Part shown: piece after piece, positions 2,649 to 35,943 of the stretch | How the letters are laid out: each line of letters starts with the position of its first letter | Numbering within the stretch: position 1 is the stretch's first letter | Assembly (NCBI GenBank): GCA_025352165.1 | Contig: JANXTX010000088.1 | Coordinates: forward strand, 1-35,943 | Direction of reading: 5' to 3' | Length of the DNA stretch: 35,943 nt | DNA from: Caulobacteraceae bacterium | Lineage (GTDB): Bacteria > Pseudomonadota > Alphaproteobacteria > Caulobacterales > Caulobacteraceae | Position numbers and translations under genes: made by a program | The notes under the pieces: model-generated | Told to the model about the DNA's origin: nothing | What the model saw: the letters and a program-made list of their open reading frames with translations, nothing else | Databases searched by the model: none

Positions 2649-2682
2649 CAATAGAAGTCTGCAACAACCAGGGAGGACGCGG

Positions 2683-3084
2683 ATGGCGTTCGTTGGACCG
2701 ATCGAAGACCGGCTGGCTATCCGTGAGCGGGTGGAAGCCTATTGCGACGCGGTGTTCCGCAAGGACGCCGATGACTGGATCGCCTGCTGGGCGGAAGACG
2801 GCGTATGGAAGCTGCCAGGGATGGAAGTCGCCGGCCACGAAGCGATGAAGCCGGCGTGGATCAACGCGATGAGCGCCTACAAGTTCGCCGGCTTTTTCGG
2901 CAACCCCGGGCACATCGTGGTCACCGGCGACACCGCCGAGGCGCGCACCTACACCACCGAGTATCTGGAGCGGAACGACGGCGTCTACATCAAGATCTTC
3001 GGCTCCTATGAAGACCATCTGGTGAAGAAGAACGGAACCTGGGTGTTCTCCAGCCGCGCCTACACCGTGCTGAGGTCCGAATAG
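2683..3084 (+). CDS. SnoaL-like / NTF2-fold protein (133 aa)
   Basis: A small alpha+beta-cone protein of the SnoaL-like family: an N-terminal helix (IEDRLAIRERVEAYCDAV), an ADDWIACWAEDGVW segment, and C-terminal strands ending in WVFSSRAYTVL. A strong ribosome-binding site (GGGAGGA) precedes the ATG. Family members are isomerases, cyclases or dehydratases, or binding subunits. The beta subunits of ring-hydroxylating dioxygenases have the same fold but are usually longer. Sitting directly after two Rieske alpha genes, it could be a noncanonical beta-like partner, or a separate enzyme acting on the hydroxylated product. Its stop overlaps the next start by one base, so translation is probably coupled. 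Confidence 0.85.
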   Translation: MAFVGPIEDRLAIRERVEAYCDAVFRKDADDWIACWAEDGVWKLPGMEVAGHEAMKPAWINAMSAYKFAGFFGNPGHIVVTGDTAEARTYTTEYLERNDGVYIKIFGSYEDHLVKKNGTWVFSSRAYTVLRSE

Positions 3085-3440
3085 TGAGCGGTCCCTACCG
3101 CGTCGTCATTTCGGGCGAGATCGATGTCGAGCCGTCAATTCGGGAAAAAGCCATTCTCGATGCCCAGCCGCTGATCGCCGATGCGCTCGCGGAAAAAGGC
3201 TGCGTCCACTATGCCTGGACGTGCGATCCCGCCAAGCCGGGACGCATCCACGTGTTCGAAGAATGGGACACCGAAGCCGACCTGATTGCCCATCTGGCAG
3301 CCGAACCCTACTTGAAAATGGCCGGACATCTGGCGGCGACCGGAATTCTCGGCGCCGTAACGCGAAAGTACAGGGTTGATATCGTCGAGCCGGTCTATGA
3401 TCCGGACGGCAAGCCGAGGGGCGATTTCTTCACCGCGTGA
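3084..3440 (+). CDS. antibiotic biosynthesis monooxygenase (ABM) domain protein (118 aa)
   Basis: Begins with GTG, sharing one base with the preceding stop codon. It shows the dimeric ferredoxin-like fold pattern: a first strand YRVVISGEIDV, a helix, CVHYAWTCDPAKPGRIHVFEEW, then a helix with AHLAAEPYLKMAGHL. The family includes cofactor-free quinol monooxygenases and small stress-type proteins. In catabolic clusters such proteins often act on ring-hydroxylated or quinone intermediates. The C-terminal tail after about residue 95 is longer than the minimal domain. The fold is secure, the reaction is not. Confidence 0.8.
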   Translation: MSGPYRVVISGEIDVEPSIREKAILDAQPLIADALAEKGCVHYAWTCDPAKPGRIHVFEEWDTEADLIAHLAAEPYLKMAGHLAATGILGAVTRKYRVDIVEPVYDPDGKPRGDFFTA

Positions 3441-3481
3441 CCCCCGAGGGTCAGACGGGCGACACTTACAGGAGACGTATT

Positions 3482-4690
3482 GTGACAAAGATGGTGGCTG
3501 GCGCTGAATTGACGGCGATGGTGCGCGACTCGATCGGCCACGCCAAGGCCGGGACTATCTCCAAGACCCCGGGTATCCTGAAGCTGGCGGCGTCTCGCTA
3601 CTATGACCCGGAGCTGTTCCAGAAGGAAGTCGACCAGATCTTCAAGCGGGTGCCGCTGATGCTGGCGGCCTCGTCCGAACTGCCCAACCCCGGCGACTTC
3701 AAGACCATGGAAGCGGTAGGCCTGCCGATACTGATCGTCCGAGGCCAGGACATGATCGCGCGCGCGTTCATCAATTCGTGCAGCCACCGCGGCACCAACG
3801 TCGCCGTGGCGCCCACGGGCAACGCCAAGCGCTTCATGTGCCCCTATCACGGCTGGACATTCACCCAGAAGGGCGAGCTGATGGGCGTGGCCTCGGCCGA
3901 CGACTTCGGCGAAATCGACAAATCCTGCTACGGTCTGACTCCGTTGCCGTCGGCGGAGCGCTCCGGTCTGATCTGGGTGATCGCCAACGCCAAGTCGGAC
4001 CTCGTCATCGATGACTTCCTGTCGGGCTACGACAAGTTGCTGGCGAACTTCGGTTTCGACAAGTGGCATTTCTTTTCCAGCCGGGTTCTGGCCGGGCCGA
4101 ACTGGAAGATCGCCTACGACGGCTATCTGGACTTCTACCACCTGCCGGTTCTGCACAGGAACACCTTTGGCGAGGACATGTTCAACCAGGCGCTATTCTA
4201 TGCCTGGGGTCCGCACCAGTGCGTGCGGGCGCCGACGGCGAACCTGATCGAAATGGACGCCCTGCCGGAAGATCAGTGGTCGAACGAGGACGTGATGAGC
4301 GGCGTGTGGACGATCTTCCCGCACATCTCGATCGCCAGCTTCGGCGGCGGTGGGCGCGGGGTGATGGTCTCGCAGCTGATGCCGGGCAAACACGTCGGCG
4401 AGTCCTTCACGACCCAGATGTACCTTACCCAGGATCCGCCGACCGAGCAGATGCTCGCCGAGGTGGACGCGCAATTCAAATTCCTGGAGGTCGTCGTCCG
4501 CGACGAGGACTATGCGACCGGCCTGCGCCAGCAACGCGCGCTCGAAGGGGGCGGCCGGGAGTTCGTTCTGTTCGGCGAGAATGAGGGCGGCGCCCGACGT
4601 TTCCACCAATGGGTGGATACTCTTCTCGCGGCCGACGACGAAGAGCTCAAAGCCCTGTTCAGGCCGGGCGCGATCCAGCCCGGCGCTTGA
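3482..4690 (+). CDS. Rieske oxygenase alpha subunit, divergent type (402 aa)
   Basis: The start chosen is GTG at 3482, which has AGGAG seven bases upstream. A frame extension to GTG 3437 would overlap the previous gene and lacks such a site. Rieske ligands are C100, H102, C120 and H123. The mononuclear site is D217-FYH220-LPVLH225, with the usual Asp bridge, unlike the two Rieske proteins upstream. It clearly belongs to another branch of the superfamily, so its substrate or regiochemistry probably differs. It is the last plus-strand gene before the convergent TetR gene. It is probably cotranscribed with the ABM gene, from whose stop it is 41 bases away. The electron donor is not encoded nearby. 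Confidence 0.94.
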   Translation: MTKMVAGAELTAMVRDSIGHAKAGTISKTPGILKLAASRYYDPELFQKEVDQIFKRVPLMLAASSELPNPGDFKTMEAVGLPILIVRGQDMIARAFINSCSHRGTNVAVAPTGNAKRFMCPYHGWTFTQKGELMGVASADDFGEIDKSCYGLTPLPSAERSGLIWVIANAKSDLVIDDFLSGYDKLLANFGFDKWHFFSSRVLAGPNWKIAYDGYLDFYHLPVLHRNTFGEDMFNQALFYAWGPHQCVRAPTANLIEMDALPEDQWSNEDVMSGVWTIFPHISIASFGGGGRGVMVSQLMPGKHVGESFTTQMYLTQDPPTEQMLAEVDAQFKFLEVVVRDEDYATGLRQQRALEGGGREFVLFGENEGGARRFHQWVDTLLAADDEELKALFRPGAIQPGA

Positions 4691-17322: not shown

Positions 17323-18125
17323 ATGGGTAGATTGGCAGGCAAGAAGGCCGTGGTGCTTGGCGCCGCCGGCAAGGACAACATGGGCCAGGTCATCGCCCGG
17401 CGTCTCGCCGCCGAAGGCGCGACGGTCCTGGTCGCTGGTCGCCGGGCAGAGCCGCTCGAAGCGCTCGCCAAGGAAATCGGCGGTCACTTCGCATTGTGCG
17501 ACATCGCCAAGCGGGACGATGTCTTCGCGCTGGCTGAAACTGCCAAGGCCAGGATGGGTGGCGTCGATATCGCCGTGCAAGCCGCCGCGATCGCTCCGCT
17601 GATCCCGTTCCTTGAGAACACCGAGGCGCAGCTTCGGGAGATGACAGACATCCTGTTCCTCGGACCGTTCTATTTCCTGCAGGCGATGATCGGGGCGATG
17701 GATCACGGTGGCTCAATCGTACAGATCAGTTCCGCAACCGCGACGATCATGCTCAACGATCACGCCGCCTACATGGGCGCCAAGGCGGGCATTGATCATG
17801 TCGTTCGCGCCGCCGCCAATGAGTTCGGATCGCGCGGCATCAAGATTAACTCCATCTCGCCGGGACTGACCGACACACCGATGACGGCCGGCGCGAAGAT
17901 GACGCCCGGCGTTTTCGATGCTTTCATTCCTTCCTATCCGCTGGGGCGCATCGGAACCTCTGATGACATCGCGGCCGGCGTGGTCTGGCTTGCCAGCGAC
18001 GAGTGCTTCATGACCGGGCAGAACCTGCACGTGAACGGCGGCCTTACGCTTCGCCGAAATCCGAACCGGGAAGAGATCACCGCCGCGGTCGGCGCCGCCA
18101 TGGCGGCTCAGGCCGCAACAGCCTG

Positions 18126-18126
<1 letters not shown>
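17323..18126 (+). CDS. short-chain dehydrogenase/reductase (267 aa)
   Basis: GGAGGAG lies seven bases before the ATG. The Rossmann motif is GAAGKDNMG (13-21), followed by AGRR (38-41), which suggests NADP(H). The catalytic residues are Ser136/137 (QISSATA) and Y150xxxK154 (YMGAK). The usual NNAG motif is replaced by QAAA (86-89), which is less common and may alter the structure near the active site. It probably oxidises a hydroxyl formed by the upstream Rieske enzyme. Its TGA stop overlaps the next ATG (TGATG), so it is translationally coupled to the acyl-CoA synthetase. Confidence 0.92.
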
Positions 18127-19703
<1,577 letters not shown>

Positions 19704-19725
19704 ACCTCGCCGTCTCCTCTATAGG

Positions 19726-19818
19726 GGCTGCCGGACGCACGTATTTCGGAGACGATCCACTGAACACCTCTCCCGTTTGGGAGAGGGAGGGGCCCAGCGA
19801 AGCTGGGAGGGTGAGGGT
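19726..19818. repeat. left inverted repeat of the DUF559 element (93 nt; REP-like core 19764-19818)
   Basis: The inner 55 bases (19764-19818) are a perfect reverse complement of 20231-20285. The outer bases match 20286-20323 imperfectly but without gaps. The core has two hairpins: CCTCTCCC (19767-19774), GTTT, GGGAGAGG (19779-19786), and CCCAGC (19793-19798), GAA, GCTGGG (19802-19807). It begins 23 bases after the acyl-CoA synthetase stop, so the hairpins could also end that transcript. Confidence 0.9.
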
Positions 19819-19842
19819 CTATTGCGTTCGCGGAAGGGGAGC

Positions 19843-20193
19843 TCAGCCCCGAATAATCTTGATTTCGTCAAATATGGCCCGAGCGACGCCATCAATATTC
19901 TCTAGGGCGTCGTTGTTGCCGAACCGTATGACGCGCCAGCCGCACATTGACAGGACACGCGTTCGCTCTTCGTCGTAAGCAACCTGTTCAGCGTGTTGGC
20001 CGCCGTCCAGCTCCACGATCAGTTTGACGGCGACGCAGGCGAAGTCGGCGAAATAGCGGTCGATGGGGACTTGGCGTCGGAATTTCAGGCCCTCGAATCG
20101 GCGCCCTCTCAGCGCCGCCCAGACAGCCCGCTCCGCGTCGGTCGAGGTAGACCTTAATGATCTCGCCCGGGAGATGCGTGTGCGGCGTTCCAT
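19843..20193 (-). CDS. DUF559 (Vsr/PD-(D/E)xK-type) endonuclease-domain protein (116 aa)
   Basis: The ATG at 20193 is preferred, and a TTG sits directly before it. The sequence carries the DUF559 hallmark: FRRQVPIDRYFADFAC followed by LIVELDGGQH, giving putative catalytic D50, E61 and D63 as in very-short-patch-repair and related PD-(D/E)xK nucleases. A basic N-terminus (MERRTRISRARSLR) could contact DNA. It fills most of the space between two 93-nt inverted repeats and has no metabolic neighbours in its orientation. The family's true function is unsettled. The arrangement here suggests that the nuclease acts on, or helped spread, the surrounding repeat. Confidence 0.85.
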   Translation of the reverse strand: MERRTRISRARSLRSTSTDAERAVWAALRGRRFEGLKFRRQVPIDRYFADFACVAVKLIVELDGGQHAEQVAYDEERTRVLSMCGWRVIRFGNNDALENIDGVARAIFDEIKIIRG

Positions 20194-20230
20194 CAACCAC
20201 AGGTACGCTCTTCAGCCCGAGCGCAAAAGA

Positions 20231-20323
20231 ACCCTCACCCTCCCAGCTTCGCTGGGCCCCTCCCTCTCCCAAACGGGAGAGGTGTTTCGCGGATCACCTT
20301 GGAGCTGTGTGCCTCCGGTAGCC
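20231..20323. repeat. right inverted repeat of the DUF559 element (93 nt; REP-like core 20231-20285)
   Basis: Reverse complement of 19726-19818: perfect over the inner 55 bases and about 70 percent by eye over the outermost 43 positions counted with a short overlap. It ends 28 bases before the stop of the ThuA gene. Its core starts 38 bases before the endonuclease ATG. Confidence 0.9.
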
Positions 20324-20351
20324 ATAAAGGGGAGGGAGGAAAAAGCGACTG

Positions 20352-21170
20352 TCAGCCCTGTTTGGCCCAGGCCAGCGCCTCGGGCGACGCCACCCAGCGG
20401 ATCGCGTTTTCAATCAGCTGGCGGTAGTTCGGATCATCGTAGGTCGCCGGGCCATCGCCGGGCTGCAGGTAGACCAGCGGACTGTTGCGGGCGCGCTTGG
20501 TCCAGCCGATCAGGTTGGGGCCGTCTTCGTGCAACCAACCTTCGTTGGAGAACATCTTCCCGGAGATCGCCCGCGCCGCTGAATAGAAGTTGTCGCGGGT
20601 GAAGGTGGCGCTGGAGCGCAGCAGTGGCTGGACTGAGTCCTCGAAAACCTCGGAGAGATAAATTTCGTCGGTCAGCGGAAAGCTGTCCGGCAGGCCCGCG
20701 ACCACCGGGTGAGCACGGTCGACGACCGTCACGGTGTGCGGAACGTCGTGGTGATAGCCGGAGTCGGGCAGTTGCCTGCCCCTAAGTTCGCCTGGCTGGT
20801 AGAGGAACCGGCCGCCCAGCAGCTCGGCGTACTCCGGCCATGCCGGCCAGCCGGCAATGGCGTGGTGCAGGGCGACGATGCCCTTGCCGTGGTCCAGGAG
20901 CGCCAGCAGGCCCTGCTTGAACTCGGCATCCGGCTCGACGAACTCGGGACCGCCGGCGAAATTGATGCCCGGGATGTCATAGAGCACCAGGGCGTCGTAG
21001 CCCTCCATCGCCTTGGTATTCATCAGCCGTTGAGCCGCGGGCTGCTCGACCAGCGAGCCGGCGATGCCGGGCATCTGGTCGAAGATCGCCATGAACGGAT
21101 CGCGCAGATAGGGGTGTCCCTTGGCGACGACGAGGACGTTCAGCGGTTCGCCATAGCGGACGGTGGGCAT
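20352..21170 (-). CDS. ThuA-domain protein (272 aa)
   Basis: AAGGAGAG lies upstream of the ATG. The class I glutamine-amidotransferase-like fold is suggested by LNVLVVAKGHPYLRDPF, YDALVLYDIPG, GKGIVALHHAIAGWPAWPEY and DEIYLSEVF, which are ThuA hallmarks. No nucleophilic Cys-His-Glu triad is evident. ThuA proteins were named from trehalose utilisation in rhizobia, but most are uncharacterised and occur in many catabolic operons. It is the last gene of the minus-strand operon, 22 bases after the reductase. Its role here is unknown. Confidence 0.88.
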   Translation of the reverse strand: MPTVRYGEPLNVLVVAKGHPYLRDPFMAIFDQMPGIAGSLVEQPAAQRLMNTKAMEGYDALVLYDIPGINFAGGPEFVEPDAEFKQGLLALLDHGKGIVALHHAIAGWPAWPEYAELLGGRFLYQPGELRGRQLPDSGYHHDVPHTVTVVDRAHPVVAGLPDSFPLTDEIYLSEVFEDSVQPLLRSSATFTRDNFYSAARAISGKMFSNEGWLHEDGPNLIGWTKRARNSPLVYLQPGDGPATYDDPNYRQLIENAIRWVASPEALAWAKQG

Positions 21171-28039: not shown

Positions 28040-30532
28040 CTAAAAGTGGCGGGTGACCTGGAAGGTCACTTCGCGCGGACGTCCCAGCGAGGCAGTGATA
28101 TCGCCGCCGGCTCCTGGTACAACTTGGCTCAACGGCTTGTCGCCGCCCAGCACCGCATAATAGGTGTCCGTGAGATTCTTTCCGATGATCGCGAATTCCC
28201 ACTTGTCGTTATAGACTCGCGCGCTCAGGTCGACGGTTGCGTACTTGCCCTGATATCCACCGGGGTTGTTGTTCGTCTCGAACAGGTAGCCGGAGCTGTA
28301 GCGAACGTCACCCGTCAGCGCGAGCTTATAGTCGTTAAAGATCTCGTGCTCGTAGGTGGCGCCGACCAGGGCGACGAGGTCGGGCGCGCGGTAGATTGGC
28401 GCGCCGCTAAGGTTCTGCGTACCCGAGTGTTGATTCGGGTTGGCCGCGGAGGGGCCGCATCCCTCCGCGGCAGACTGTCCCGTCCAGCACTGCGCATCGC
28501 TGAATGTGTCATACCGCGCGTGATTGTAGCCGACAGAAACGTGGGCGCCGAATTCCTGCGTCGCCTGGAAGTTCAGGTTGACCTCGACACCCTGGCTGGT
28601 GGCGGACCCCGCGTTCTGCGTGAAGTATGAGGTCGTCGCCGCGTCGAACGCGGTCAGCTGGAGGCCGGAGAAGGTGTACCGATACAACGTCAGGTCGCCC
28701 GTCAGTCGGCGATCCATTTCCGAGAACTTCAGGCCGACTTCGCCGCCTTTCACAGTTTCCTCGTGAAAAGTCTGATTGTCGATCGTCGCAACGGCCGGAA
28801 TGAGCGCCGGAGTCGAGAAGCCACCCGATTTGAAGCCAGTCTTATAGGCGCCGTAAACCATCACATCGGGCGACATGTGCCAGGACAACGTTACCTGCGG
28901 CGAGACGTTTGTATCCGTGAACGTTTTGATGAAACGCGTTCCCACCGGAGAGGCGATAGTGCCGCCGGTCAGCAGTTGCAGCAGCGGATGCACATAGGTC
29001 ATGCCGTCGTTGCCGTATTTGGTTTCAGACGAATAGCGCGCCCCACCCGCCAGTTCGACGTTCGGCAGGACCTTCCAGCTCAACTCGCCGAAGCCCGAAT
29101 AGGAGTCGGTGTGATAATAGTCGATGCTCTGGAAAAGATCGGTGTTGCCTGTCGCCGGGTCGACGCCGAGATAGCCGATGCTGCCGACTTGGTGGAAGCT
29201 ACGCCGGTCATGCCCATAGAAGCCGCCGATCGTGAAATTGAGCGGCCCCTGGAACGACGACTGTAGTCGAAGCTCTTGGCTCAGCGACGTCTGCTCGTCG
29301 TTGTTGACGCCAGAGGCCAGGACCATGTCGGTCTCGTCATAGTTCGACCACTGCGTCTGGTTGTATTCGTAATAGCCCGTCACCGAGGTCAGGGTCAGAT
29401 GATCGGCGACCTTGTAGTTCATGGTCAAAGACGACAGGTAGGTCAGCACATCCGTATACGGAATGCCGCCGTTCGATCCCGGGTAACCGGCGGCCCAGCC
29501 CGCGGGAAGACCGCCCATCGAGTTCGAGCGCGCGCCGTGGCAGCTGCTGTAGGGGTCCTGGGGGTAGATAGGGCCCCCCTTCAAGAAAGCGCCGAAGTCG
29601 AGGCTGCTGGTGTGCGAATTGCCCGGCGTACAACGCCAGATCACCGTTTCCATGCTGTCGCCGCGGTCATGGTGATCGCTACCCAGGAACTTGAAGCTGG
29701 CGTCGAACCGGCTGCCGGGCGGCCTATAGTTCAGTGTAAAGCGACCGATGACTTCGCGCGAGCCGGGATAATTGGAGAACGGTGACCCCGGCATGGTCAT
29801 ACCATCAGCACGCACAAATGCCGGCAGTTGAGCCCCGGTCAGGGGCCCGCCGACGCCCTTGACGTATCCGCCGGTCATGTCGCTGTAACGGAAGGCCGCA
29901 CGAGCGGAGAGACCGTCGGCGATCGGTCCGCCGAAGGCACCTTCACCGAACCAGTTCTGGGCCCCCTCTTCATAACCCGCGCGCACATAGCCGCTGGCGA
30001 CATCGCCCGGGTTCTGGCTGGTGATCGAGATCACCCCGGCCGGGCTGTTCTTGCCGAAATAGAGAGCCTGAGGTCCTTTGAGCACCTGCACGGAGGCTTC
30101 GTCGAAGAAGGCCTGGGCGATCACGCGGCCCCGGCTGATCGGCACGCCGTCGATGTTGATGGTGACTTCCTGTTCGATCGCCGCGTCGACGTTCGTCGAG
30201 CCGATGCCACGGATCGTGATCAGCGCGCCGGTGCCCGAGGCGCCATGGTCGATGCTGACCTGGGGAATCTGAAGGCCGACGTCGGTGAGGTCCGTGGTCG
30301 CGTATTTGGCCAGCGCTTTATTGGAGAGTGAGACGGCCGCTACCGGCACGTCAAGCAGCCTTTCCGTCTTCTTACGCGCAGTGACGGTCACTTCCTCGAC
30401 GTTGACCGCATTGTTGTCTGCGCTCGCCGATGTCGCCGCGCTAGCGGCCAATACCGGATTGGCCCCCAAGGTGAGGGCCATTGCAACGCCTCCCAACAGG
30501 GCAGCGCGCGTGCGAATTGAAGTGGTGATCAT
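28040..30532 (-). CDS. TonB-dependent outer-membrane receptor (830 aa)
   Basis: A signal peptide (MITTSIRTRAALLGGVAMAL... to VLA near residue 29) is followed by the TonB-box-like NVEEVTVTARKKTERLLDVP. The plug domain follows (TIRGIG, DGVPISRGR, EVQ-type VQVLKGPQALYFGKNSPAGVI), then a long 22-strand-type barrel ending in TFQVTRHF with the terminal Phe needed for barrel assembly. It imports large or scarce substrates across the outer membrane, energised by TonB-ExbBD. The VEEVTVTARK-type start is typical of catabolic receptors in sphingomonads and Caulobacter relatives. It lies next to P450 genes, so hydrophobic-substrate uptake is inferred. Confidence 0.95.
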   Translation of the reverse strand: MITTSIRTRAALLGGVAMALTLGANPVLAASAATSASADNNAVNVEEVTVTARKKTERLLDVPVAAVSLSNKALAKYATTDLTDVGLQIPQVSIDHGASGTGALITIRGIGSTNVDAAIEQEVTINIDGVPISRGRVIAQAFFDEASVQVLKGPQALYFGKNSPAGVISITSQNPGDVASGYVRAGYEEGAQNWFGEGAFGGPIADGLSARAAFRYSDMTGGYVKGVGGPLTGAQLPAFVRADGMTMPGSPFSNYPGSREVIGRFTLNYRPPGSRFDASFKFLGSDHHDRGDSMETVIWRCTPGNSHTSSLDFGAFLKGGPIYPQDPYSSCHGARSNSMGGLPAGWAAGYPGSNGGIPYTDVLTYLSSLTMNYKVADHLTLTSVTGYYEYNQTQWSNYDETDMVLASGVNNDEQTSLSQELRLQSSFQGPLNFTIGGFYGHDRRSFHQVGSIGYLGVDPATGNTDLFQSIDYYHTDSYSGFGELSWKVLPNVELAGGARYSSETKYGNDGMTYVHPLLQLLTGGTIASPVGTRFIKTFTDTNVSPQVTLSWHMSPDVMVYGAYKTGFKSGGFSTPALIPAVATIDNQTFHEETVKGGEVGLKFSEMDRRLTGDLTLYRYTFSGLQLTAFDAATTSYFTQNAGSATSQGVEVNLNFQATQEFGAHVSVGYNHARYDTFSDAQCWTGQSAAEGCGPSAANPNQHSGTQNLSGAPIYRAPDLVALVGATYEHEIFNDYKLALTGDVRYSSGYLFETNNNPGGYQGKYATVDLSARVYNDKWEFAIIGKNLTDTYYAVLGGDKPLSQVVPGAGGDITASLGRPREVTFQVTRHF

Positions 30533-30770: not shown

Positions 30771-33161
30771 TCAGAACTTGGCCTGCAACTCCACCAGGAA
30801 CGTCCGCGGATCCCCCCAACCCTGGAAGTCGACGGCCGCGAGCGTGTTGGACAGGTAAAGCGCGTTTCCGAGGTTCTTGCCCGACAATGTCAGCTTGTAG
30901 TTCTTCCAGGCGTAGGAAATCGACGCGTCGACAAGCCCATAGGCGCTTTCATAATCGTAATAAGGAGCACCCAGCCCGCCGATGATATACTTGTCGGTCC
31001 AGTGGTAACGGACGCTGAAATCGATCAGGCCAGGACCGAGCTCATGATTGTAGTCCCCGCTGATCTGGAAGTTCCACGGTGGCGCGTTAGCGAATGCGCC
31101 GCCCTGGACGGGATATACGGACCCAGGCGCACCTGCCTGACCGCCCGGCCCGATCGGAAAAAAGATTCCGGGAAGTGACCCGGTCGGTGGCGTCCCGTGC
31201 TCATAGCCGCCGGAGAATGCCAGCGTCAGGCCGGGGGCCGATTGAAGACGAAGGACTGATTCGAGCTCAAGCCCGTAGATCTTTATCTCCGGCAGATTGA
31301 CAATGTAGGTGTTGGTGCCTGGCCCATAGCTGCCTGTCTGGACAACGCTTCCAGCCTGACTGCCGTAGTCCAGTGTATAAAATCCGGCCAGGTTCAGCGT
31401 CAGCTGATTATCGAAAAACCGGTTCTTTGATCCAACTTCGTACGACCGGTCTGTCTCAGGATTGAAAGAAAGATAGTCCGCGCCTGGTGAATAATTGGTC
31501 GAAGTCGGTTGAGATTCAGAGAGCGTGCCGCGCGGTGAGAAACCACCTGACCTGAAACCTTGCGACACTGTGGCGTACAGCAAGTTTTCGTTCGTGAGCT
31601 TGTACTCCAACGCGAAGCGCGTGATCGGCTTGGACCAGGACGCGTGGTCGTGCACGCTGATCAATGGTATATTGAAAAATAGATTATTGTAGGCATTGTG
31701 ATACGTTGTTGATTCATCAATATAACGTATCCCCGCTGACAGCTTCAGCTGGCTCGTCACATTAAAGTCAAAGTTCCCAAACACCGACAGGCTGTGGTTT
31801 GATTCGCCGGATATCTGATTAGTCCAGACCTGATCGTAGGCAACAAACGGCAATCCAAGCCGGGTCAGCTGAACCGCCTCGATGTCATGATGGAAATAGA
31901 ACCCGCCCACCATGAGCTTGGCGCGGCCGCCGAAATCGTGGCTGAAGCGTACTTCCTCCGTGAACTGGTCGTATTTTTGCGGTCTGGAGGTGTGCAGGTA
32001 GAGGCCACCGAGCGCCGGGTTTCCGAGCACGTTACAGGGAGCCCTCCCGGCCGGAGCATTGTAGGCGAAGCAACTTCCGTCGAAATCCTGGTCCGTCGCG
32101 TCGTTCTGCTTGATGAAGGCGGTGATCGTGGTCAGTTGGCCATAGGGTGTGTCCCAGACCGCGTTCAGGCTGTAACGCTGCTGTGAAAGCTGGTTGCGGT
32201 CAGGGAAGGCGGCTGCCGATTGCCGCGGGCCCAGCGGCACGGTGACTCCAGGGATATAGGGCGAGCCGACGTTGTTGAAGAGGATGGGCACGCCCAGGAA
32301 GTCCTTCCCGGCCGCGTAGTCCGCCCCGTGCAACTGAGCAAAGGCGGGATCGCCCAGCGATACGGGCGTGCCTTCGCCATACTCATGCGTGAAGTCGGCG
32401 CTCGCCAATATGTCCAGGGTCGGCGTGGGCTTCCAGTCGAACTCGATGTTCGCCGTCCCCAGAGCGTCGCGGCCGTACGGCTTCTGCGTGTAGACGTTGT
32501 AGTCGAATCCACCGCGCTCGCGGAACGAGTAACCAATCTTCAGCCCGGCGGTCCGACCGATCGGAGCGTTCGCTATGATGCGACCCTGGTGCTGACCGTA
32601 ATCCCCGATCGCACCGTCGAGGCTCAGGCCCCATTGATGGGTCGGCCGGCTGCGATGAACGCTGATCGCCCCGCCGGTCGTGTTCTTGCCAAAGAAGATA
32701 CCTTGCGGCCCGCGGTCGATCTCGACCTGCTGGATGTCGAAGGCATCGATCAGCTGGGCGGTGCTGGTGCCGATCACCACATCGTCGATCAGCAGACCGA
32801 CGACCGGATTCTGGCCCTTTTCGATATCCGCGTAACCGAGGCCACGAATGAAAATGGCCGAGGCGCCGGAGCCCGCGGTGTTCAGGCCGATAAGGACGTT
32901 GGGCGCCTCGCCGGCGAAATCCAGCAGGGTTCGTGGTTTCAGAGCCTCGATCTGGGCGGACGTCACGGCGGTGACAGCGACCGGCACCTGCTGAAGATTT
33001 TCGGATGAGCGCCGCGCGGTCACCACGACTTCCTCAACGGTGCTATTCTTCGCCGGCGAACTTGTCGCCGCGGCGCGCGCCCAAGAAGGACTGGTGATAG
33101 CAATTGCAAAGGCGCTGCCGCAAAGCAGGGCGCGACGCAGAGTCCGGGCGTTGCTGAACAT
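30771..33161 (-). CDS. TonB-dependent outer-membrane receptor (796 aa)
   Basis: The start chosen is ATG 33161, with GGGAGGAG just upstream. The frame runs on to 33263, but that would extend the signal peptide and overlap the shared box. Signal peptide LRRALLCGSAFAIAITSPSWARA, then STVEEVVVTARRSSENLQQVP as TonB box and plug start, with IFIRGLGYADIEKGQN, DDVVIGTSTAQLIDAFD and VEIDRGPQGIFFGKNTTGGAI. The barrel ends FLVELQAKF. Not a close copy of the receptor at 28040, so a second ligand or transport of a related metabolite is likely. It is divergent from the SDR-P450 pair. Confidence 0.95.
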   Translation of the reverse strand: MFSNARTLRRALLCGSAFAIAITSPSWARAAATSSPAKNSTVEEVVVTARRSSENLQQVPVAVTAVTSAQIEALKPRTLLDFAGEAPNVLIGLNTAGSGASAIFIRGLGYADIEKGQNPVVGLLIDDVVIGTSTAQLIDAFDIQQVEIDRGPQGIFFGKNTTGGAISVHRSRPTHQWGLSLDGAIGDYGQHQGRIIANAPIGRTAGLKIGYSFRERGGFDYNVYTQKPYGRDALGTANIEFDWKPTPTLDILASADFTHEYGEGTPVSLGDPAFAQLHGADYAAGKDFLGVPILFNNVGSPYIPGVTVPLGPRQSAAAFPDRNQLSQQRYSLNAVWDTPYGQLTTITAFIKQNDATDQDFDGSCFAYNAPAGRAPCNVLGNPALGGLYLHTSRPQKYDQFTEEVRFSHDFGGRAKLMVGGFYFHHDIEAVQLTRLGLPFVAYDQVWTNQISGESNHSLSVFGNFDFNVTSQLKLSAGIRYIDESTTYHNAYNNLFFNIPLISVHDHASWSKPITRFALEYKLTNENLLYATVSQGFRSGGFSPRGTLSESQPTSTNYSPGADYLSFNPETDRSYEVGSKNRFFDNQLTLNLAGFYTLDYGSQAGSVVQTGSYGPGTNTYIVNLPEIKIYGLELESVLRLQSAPGLTLAFSGGYEHGTPPTGSLPGIFFPIGPGGQAGAPGSVYPVQGGAFANAPPWNFQISGDYNHELGPGLIDFSVRYHWTDKYIIGGLGAPYYDYESAYGLVDASISYAWKNYKLTLSGKNLGNALYLSNTLAAVDFQGWGDPRTFLVELQAKF

Positions 33162-33250
33162 GACTTCTCCTCCCATATTTTTGTTGCGGCGCATCTTAAG
33201 TGCGCCTGCCGTAAGTCTTACCGTCCGTATCGGAAGCAGGCGCGCCATGA

Positions 33251-33280
33251 CGAGAAAAGTCAAGCGTGCTTGTTATGAGC
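33251..33280 (-). promoter_or_regulatory. shared TTGACTTTT box between TonB receptor and SDR-P450 genes
   Basis: Minus-strand AAGCACGCTTGACTTTTCT, with TTGACT at 33263-33258. On the plus strand CAAGC-GT-GCTTG (33261-33272) is a small dyad. A 30-base stretch agrees with 25691-25720 at 25 positions. It sits in the 162-base divergent gap, so it could control both directions. The -10 is not obvious (CCTGCT at 17 bases). Confidence 0.55.
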
Positions 33281-35710: not shown

Positions 35711-35943
35711 AATCCGACGCCAGTGTCGTGCAAAATTGTGGCGGTAAGACCGCTGCCTTATCTGCGTCAACTGCGGAAAACCCTTCCCGCCCTATCCGCG
35801 GGACCGCCAGCTTCCGTGCGTCAGGGCAAGCTGGCGCGATCCAGCTGGAGGAAGTCCAGCGCAGGTAAGGGGTAGCGCCCGCCTGGTAGCGAGTGTTGCG
35901 GGGTGGAAGGTGACGACCATCGCGAAGCGTACACAGCGATTGT
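35711..35943. other. unassigned end of window
   Basis: No coding frame with family motifs is seen. The composition and the segment from about 35760 onward feel unlike the flanking catabolic genes and could be the edge of an insertion element or a structured RNA, but I cannot identify it. Confidence 0.3.

Follow-up and report, generated by a model that had tools for sequence, protein, structure and literature searches.

What role does a small nuclease gene play between two long inverted repeats, and do the enzyme and the repeats belong together? The question is raised by an element of about 600 bases in a stretch of Caulobacteraceae DNA of 35,943 nucleotides (the window, meaning here the whole stretch analysed). 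An original prediction, made from the sequence alone, described it as a DUF559 endonuclease gene enclosed in REP-like repeats and likened it to REP elements and their tyrosine transposases.

The element and its nuclease

The two inverted arms of 93 nucleotides proposed for this locus (19726-19818 and 20231-20323) are present and 86% complementary, with 80/93 positions identical, and each extends further, to about 109 nucleotides. The inner stretch of full identity exists as well, but comprises 56 bases rather than the 55 first given. From the outside towards the gene, the left arm consists of an outer box, hairpin 1, hairpin 2 and a GGGTGAGGG tail (Table 1). In the left arm the sequence of the outer box (near 19726) is GGCTGCC, and in the right arm (near 20323) it is GGCTACC, the latter corresponding to GTAG on the opposite strand. 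Folded as single-stranded DNA, the 54-nucleotide arm core forms two hairpins with a z-score of -3.9, 0/200 shuffles being equally stable, while the whole arms (103-106 nucleotides) fold less strikingly (z -1.2 and -1.3). The predicted gene for a protein of 116 residues is located between the arms, and the neighbouring genes do converge on the element, their 3' ends lying at 19703 (+) and 20352 (-). The double hairpin had also been said to occur elsewhere in the window, which did not hold: the covariance model R1, run with filters off, scores the two arms alone (E~1e-26), and the next independent match has E=0.049. It is in the genome beyond the window that the double hairpin recurs.

At the element, Rfam returned zero families at its gathering threshold, PADLOC gave two weak matches alone (E 0.004-0.005), and NCBIfam models scored below the bits needed (PRK09767, 99.7 against 218; ProA, 16.2 against 1500). 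Among the other ThuA-gene relatives fetched from the genus, the AMP-binding gene stands beside none, and no empty syntenic site for the element was found there.

Table 1 Features of the element and its neighbours; R1 is a covariance model trained on an alignment containing both window arms.
Feature	Position	Strand	Basis
Left arm, REP-like unit, 109 nt	19713..19821	+	R1, 115.5 bits, E 2.8e-26
Right arm, inverted copy of left-arm unit	20228..20336	-	R1, 114.1 bits, E 6.1e-26
Hairpin 1, left arm, CCTCTCCC-GTTT-GGGAGAGG	19767..19786	+	DNA fold
Hairpin 2, left arm, CCCAGC-GAA-GCTGGG	19793..19807	+	DNA fold
Tail AGGGTGAGGG, left arm, toward gene	19808..19817	+	Sequence reading
Hairpin 1, right arm	20263..20282	-	Sequence and fold
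Hairpin 2, right arm	20242..20256	-	Sequence and fold
DUF559 gene, predicted Vsr-like PD-(D/E)xK nuclease, 116 aa	19843..20193	-	PF04480 E 9.6e-40
AMP-binding enzyme gene (context, outside element)	18003..19703	+	PF00501 E 3.1e-84
ThuA-like protein gene (context, outside element)	20352..21170	-	PF06283 E 3e-22

The encoded protein scores above the Pfam gathering cut-off for DUF559 (PF04480; 135.3 against 20.6 bits), and among 98 sequences E61, D63 and H67 are invariant and D50 is present in at least 90%. The fold of its AlphaFold2 model (pLDDT 87.6) matches structure 3hrl (E 3.8e-8) and the homing endonuclease I-Bth0305I (3r3p; E 1.6e-4), followed by weaker matches to the modified-cytosine restriction enzyme 4oq2 (5e-3) and to mitoribosomal proteins (from 9e-3); the matches to Vsr are weak (1vsr, 0.043; 1cw0, 0.060). 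None of the best-matching structures whose role is known, i.e., the homing endonuclease, modified-cytosine restriction enzymes and Vsr, is known to process single-stranded hairpins. By its acidic positions and modelled fold, the window protein classes as a predicted nuclease of the Vsr-like PD-(D/E)xK type. Judging from the comparison with a 94%-identical copy on contig C297 of the same genome, the protein is under strong purifying selection, since dN is 0.045 and dS 0.643 (dN/dS 0.07); the 50-nucleotide repeat core differs by one base between these copies. Another DUF559 protein, VsrA of Caulobacter (CCNA_02930), is needed for the SOS response in cells lacking a cytosine methyltransferase, and a role in mismatch repair has been proposed for it (PMC12907096); the word "inverted" is absent from the main text of that paper. 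Phages are not a main home of the DUF559 nuclease, since 2/50,697 phage records contain a match at 1e-5.

Inverted repeats at DUF559 and GIY-YIG genes

The original prediction had made its case depend on whether repeats are enriched at the flanks of DUF559 genes, and this comparison came out strongly in its favour. In the flank test, the 350 nucleotides to the left of a gene were compared with the reverse complement of the 350 nucleotides to the right by best local alignment, an inverted score of at least 20 counting as positive. Loci were drawn from public genomes with an aligned set of eleven DUF559 proteins as the similarity query, and 76 of the best 80 of at least 587 loci were testable. 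The score was reached by 46/76 DUF559 genes, against 2/581 other ORFs of the same loci (Fisher p=9e-48) and 0/569 random positions of the same size; with inverted or direct repeats counted together, the figures were 58/76 and 3/581. A second sample, drawn from whole genomes, gave 71/112 for DUF559 genes and 0/62 for ORF controls. Within this second sample, an inverted score of 20 was reached by 9/11 loci of the window's own genus (one further locus being untestable), by 14/30 best-scoring loci of a 397-genome phylum sample, by 24/30 loci of five genomes picked for their high number of DUF559 genes (30 loci taken out of 37 matches), and by 24/41 genes from 40 further hand-picked rows of the same table, the whole-genome samples being non-random and biased toward strong DUF559 matches and multi-copy genomes. 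Of 194 DUF559 genes pooled, 119 reach the score when untestable ones are counted as misses. The ORF and random-position controls exclude chance for the layout seen in the window, small intergenic genes as a class lying outside these controls, and the repeat-enclosed DUF559 nuclease is a real and general finding.

Across lineages (taken from the record titles), the repeats flanking DUF559 genes have a common layout and differing sequences. By eye, arms in Alpha-, Beta-, Gamma- and Deltaproteobacteria, Planctomycetes and Chloroflexi comprise a pyrimidine-purine hairpin of the type CCCTCTCCC-loop-GGGAGAGGG, in many cases another, variable hairpin, and a GGGTGAGGG or GGGTGGGGG-like tail. In the left arms of 119 loci, the tail points toward the gene in 62, away from it in 16 and both ways in 6, and is unrecognised in 35. 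Nine hand-picked non-proteobacterial plasmid loci reached a score of at least 20 in Deinococcus (4/4) and cyanobacteria (2/4), and not in Bacillota (0/1). Proteobacterial plasmid loci reached it in 2/8 cases (L260 and L264), six of the eight being Azospirillum loci at one site with mostly left-side repeats alone. Repeats are lacking at both named enterobacterial DUF559 loci (Serratia L032 and Superficieibacter L066), at 5/5 loci of family f52 and at several loci with long reading frames.

How closely the arms follow the protein was assessed in several ways. By nearest neighbour, 119/119 DUF559 arms group with DUF559 arms, a result to which unequal group sizes and ancestry contribute. The overall protein-arm correlation was equalled by 0/200 permutations and is confounded by ancestry, and co-variation within genomes was not significant (r=0.245, 84/1000 permutations as high). 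The match between the two arms of a single locus is 0.73, against 0.26 with arms of other loci of the genome, in loci preselected for matching arms. The copy number of one repeat exceeded that of a control pattern in genomes G039 (25 vs 9) and G204 (9 vs 0), and was not above control in G244 (3 vs 3). Finally, genome G007 holds 96 weak R1 matches, some overlapping on opposite strands, without a DUF559 match, and these represent either an orphan repeat family or a different family.

Small GIY-YIG nucleases are found in a similar setting, with repeats of other types. Five DUF559-less intervals between yqeY and dnaG (L290, L305, L319, L327 and L328) contain a small ORF inside another inverted repeat, with scores of 27 to 32.5, and the scanned ORFs were GIY-YIG in 4/4 cases. 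Among the 30 best GIY-YIG loci (L334-L363) from 143 alphaproteobacterial genomes, 28 were testable; inverted repeats flank 13 of these, and the number becomes 16 when direct repeats are counted too. UvrC genes, which encode the same GIY-YIG domain, have inverted repeats in 0/18 cases (19 fetched, one incomplete). By nearest neighbour, 10/13 GIY-YIG arms group with GIY-YIG arms, unequal group sizes and ancestry again contributing. Some of the flanking repeats (GTCATCC...GGATC) resemble the CGTC class by eye, yet CGTC/GACG is not enriched in the 13 arms (7 against a shuffle mean of 5.3, 42/200 shuffles as high).

Gene-less units and changes of place

In the genome of the window, R1 detects 82 arms at E<=0.01, a lower bound with 150 of 1508 first-look candidates scored. 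These make up 36 tail-to-tail pairs, with 10 arms standing alone, so that the window family consists of short palindromic, multi-copy and paired units of the kind that defines REPs and REPINs. The gap is at most 20 nucleotides in 33 pairs, 43 nucleotides in one, and 397 and 406 nucleotides in the last two, and only these two wide pairs, i.e., the unit of the window and that of contig C297, contain DUF559 genes. The other three DUF559 genes of this genome have, by eye, different repeats nearby; one of them, L004, falls short in the flank test and another, L003, is interrupted by a contig end. G006, a sister genome encoding a nuclease with 60% identity to that of the window, shows the same division: among 31 listed of its 40 arms there are nine pairs and 13 unpaired arms, eight pairs with gaps of 48-81 nucleotides and one with a gap of 403 nucleotides that contains the DUF559 gene.

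In the units that were aligned, two types of arm can be told apart by the second hairpin, which is short in the A arm and longer in the B arm. The A/B order is preserved in the gene-bearing units of C297 and G006, and the window unit consists of two A arms. The spacer of the empty units resembles the ends of a gene-bearing unit minus the gene. The proposed analogy with REPs and RAYTs has thereby gained in strength, as the solo copies turn out to be pairs in which a short spacer takes the position of the gene in the nuclease unit. These two genomes show an autonomous/non-autonomous relation like that of RAYT and REPIN or of IS and MITE, but with a Vsr-like nuclease, and the window unit is best explained as a minimal nuclease-bearing member of a REPIN/MITE-like family, the gene replacing the short spacer.

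The position of DUF559 cassettes was compared in three settings. On three plasmids from three Deinococcus species with one hpa cluster (orthologues 66-88% identical), the cassette occupies three different junctions; there is a 4-nucleotide overlap between the oxidoreductase gene and hpaE in D. proteolyticus, and strain NW-56 carries the cassette at exactly that junction. The second setting is the yqeY-dnaG interval of one genus (61 genomes, together with a Sphingomonas plasmid), which is readable in 54/62 cases and is a hotspot, with DUF559 in 21/54 and without it in 33/54, a pattern that equally allows gain or loss. By eye, this interval may be occupied by a cassette of the DUF559 or GIY-YIG type or by inverted repeats that enclose no gene and belong to at least two further kinds, or it may be vacant. 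In L273 the interval measures 99 nucleotides, and L274 and L275, whose YqeY is equally near the query (97%), carry the cassette; the borders of the empty site are not crisp. A target-site duplication was established neither here nor at the Deinococcus junctions.

The third setting is provided by the Azospirillum megaplasmids, where the DUF559 gene lies at one site in seven records, with arms on both sides in 1/6 loci read at that site, and the repeats occur at 461 places in 41 records. Across the cassette, strains Sp7 and Az39 share 55-88 matches per 100 nucleotides, and Sp7 and MTCC4035 share 64-78 over its first 400 nucleotides, while the flanks mostly share 90-100; the Az39 and MTCC4035 cassettes differ mutually as well. 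The A. brasilense pairs Sp7/WK and Sp7/MTCC4039 are without this drop in identity. The Az39 allele of the DUF559 gene is apparently frameshifted, and A. argentinense MTCC4035 (L266, about 2680-3843) carries about 1.16 kb extra beside the left repeat of the cassette. The diverged alleles fit an exchange of cassettes, with fast local evolution as a further possibility, and plain vertical inheritance also fits the retention of a single site. In 50-kb stretches of six Azospirillum records, repeat units mostly shared their sites, with size differences, and a clean insertion was not seen.

Possible mobilisation of the repeats and relation to known systems

The DUF559 nuclease is probably the cognate enzyme of its REPIN/MITE-like repeat family, whichever of the two sub-mechanisms outlined below applies. 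This partnership is supported by the enrichment of inverted repeats over ORF and random-position controls in the first sample and over ORF controls in the second, by the DUF559 content of the only wide pairs in G000 (the genome of the window) and G006, by the resemblance between the empty-unit spacer and the ends of gene-bearing units, and by the low dN/dS and the predicted fold like that of I-Bth0305I. It is further supported by the Deinococcus junctions, the presence and absence at yqeY-dnaG and the diverged Azospirillum cassettes, and by the need for a DUF559 protein in the SOS response of Caulobacter cells lacking a methyltransferase (PMC12907096). Against it stand the R1 matches of G007 without DUF559, the non-significant co-variation within genomes, the single-site retention in Azospirillum, the enterobacterial loci without repeats, the uncrisp yqeY-dnaG borders, and the Y1 matches of G000, with which another mobiliser becomes possible.

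As to how such a partnership might work, we infer that homing-like cutting and repair is more likely than RAYT-like transposition. Recognition of the arms by the nuclease, probably in the form of extruded hairpins or of the paired palindrome, would be followed by cutting at the arms or at empty copies. Repair of the break from a filled copy could then spread or replace the cassette and homogenise the arms, as with homing endonucleases, and the short paired units would be gene-less derivatives. In the main sub-alternative, empty units would reach new sites by RAYT-like processing of single-stranded hairpins.

This sub-alternative, in which the nuclease acts on hairpins in single strands and mobilises short units in trans, its own gene remaining mostly static, overlaps with the explanation just given and is possible, if a good deal less probable. 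It would account for the large number of units in a family that has just one or two nuclease genes, for the strong DNA hairpins, and for the contrast in Azospirillum between one gene site and hundreds of repeat places, although vertical inheritance explains the Azospirillum pattern equally. However, the gene changes place in Deinococcus and allele in Azospirillum, and the nearest folds with a known role are not those of enzymes known to process single-stranded hairpins.

It is unlikely that another enzyme, e.g., a Y1/RAYT transposase, moves the repeats and that the DUF559 genes are cargo or parasites inside REP pairs. Y1_Tnp matches do occur in G000 (eight) and G006 (two), and two truncated Y1 genes of G000 lie 0.6-0.7 kb from gene-less R1 units (L410 597-832 and L411 24-266). 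Moreover, CTAC (GTAG on the opposite strand) is found at about the same place of the outer box in 7/15 aligned arms of the window family, GTAG being the tag of RAYT-linked REPs (PMC3733652). However, 0/8 Y1 genes of G000 lie inside R1 arms in the stretches examined, several of which end at contig edges, and GTAG/CTAC is not enriched over the 119 DUF559 arms (20 against a shuffle mean of 29.9). Genome G244 has zero Y1_Tnp matches, yet its DUF559 loci have arms in 6/6 cases examined, and the only expanded pairs seen contain DUF559.

Still less probable is that the arms serve the gene alone, with hairpins that act in both directions to insulate or end transcription around a mismatch repair nuclease of the Vsr type. 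Hairpins do flank the gene, and a mismatch repair role is what has been proposed for VsrA (PMC12907096), but 34/36 pairs of the genome are too close for any gene, and the arrangement is shared by 0/18 UvrC genes and 2/581 other ORFs. Transcription insulation alone was set aside, as most arm pairs enclose no gene. Finally, that REP-rich intergenic regions are merely tolerant sites, where genes are found by ascertainment, can be regarded as highly improbable: gene-less REP pairs do occur at yqeY-dnaG too, but random positions and ORFs hardly ever score, with the reservation on small intergenic genes made above.

With the DUF559 nuclease taken as partner of its repeats, the known kind to which the window unit belongs is that of repeat-enzyme pairs, and it would stand as a separate class should the mechanism prove right. 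It shares with the REP/REPIN-RAYT system short hairpin repeats in many copies, inverted pairs and one or few enzyme genes flanked by repeats (PMC3733652 and PMC3686654), but differs in its enzyme, a DUF559/Vsr-like nuclease rather than an HUH/Y1 transposase. The gene between the arms being DUF559, the unit is not a REPtron, which has a Y1/HUH transposase gene between its repeats. As for RAYT-type tags, neither GTAG nor CGTC is enriched in the 119 DUF559 arms, although CTAC/GTAG does occur in the outer box of the window family, as mentioned above. Like insertion sequences, the unit has terminal inverted repeats around one enzyme gene, and like MITEs its gene-less relatives have the same ends; it differs from an IS in having no transposase of a known class and no established target-site duplication, and in its small size. 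With homing endonucleases it shares the predicted catalytic fold of I-Bth0305I, allele differences at one site and a gene inside a repeat that exists elsewhere without the gene; however, the DUF559 unit lies outside any intron, intein or phage gene, and it presumably targets a repeat present in many copies. E. coli Vsr is similar by its weak fold match and VsrA by its domain, but the window unit has no methyltransferase. No report of an association between DUF559 and inverted repeats or REPs was listed in searches of open-licence PMC papers, a collection without preprints and most subscription journals.

Many bacteria have large numbers of palindromic repeats between their genes, and the recurrence across phyla suggests that small nucleases partner scattered repeats of a widespread class. 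Homing endonucleases occur among the GIY-YIG enzymes as well. More tentatively, and at somewhat less than even chances in our estimate, small stand-alone DUF559/Vsr-like and GIY-YIG nucleases may be the missing partners of large classes of REP-like repeats, each lineage cutting and spreading its own structured repeats, and the units minimal mobile elements of ~500-600 bases without a transposase. CGTC-tagged REPs are likewise palindromic, are reportedly without a dedicated transposase and have no known enzyme partner (PMC3733652); some GIY-YIG repeats look similar by eye, yet CGTC is enriched in neither GIY-YIG nor DUF559 arms. Should DUF559 nucleases, and perhaps the small GIY-YIG ones, prove to be partners of this kind, a family named merely "domain of unknown function" would gain a function, a transposase-free spread of DNA would become testable, and the proposed mismatch repair roles of DUF559 genes would call for a re-reading, as the gene may be a selfish partner of repeats. 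With 116 residues in the protein and a core of about 55 bases in the presumed site, the system is tractable by experiment.

Two further features of the window lie apart from the element. Positions 35851-35943 match the 5' part of a group II intron (RF02005, 63.4 bits) that ends at the contig edge, and two adjacent genes on the minus strand (28040-30532 and 30771-33263) encode TonB-dependent receptors, both of 830 residues, with 25% identity across their aligned part.
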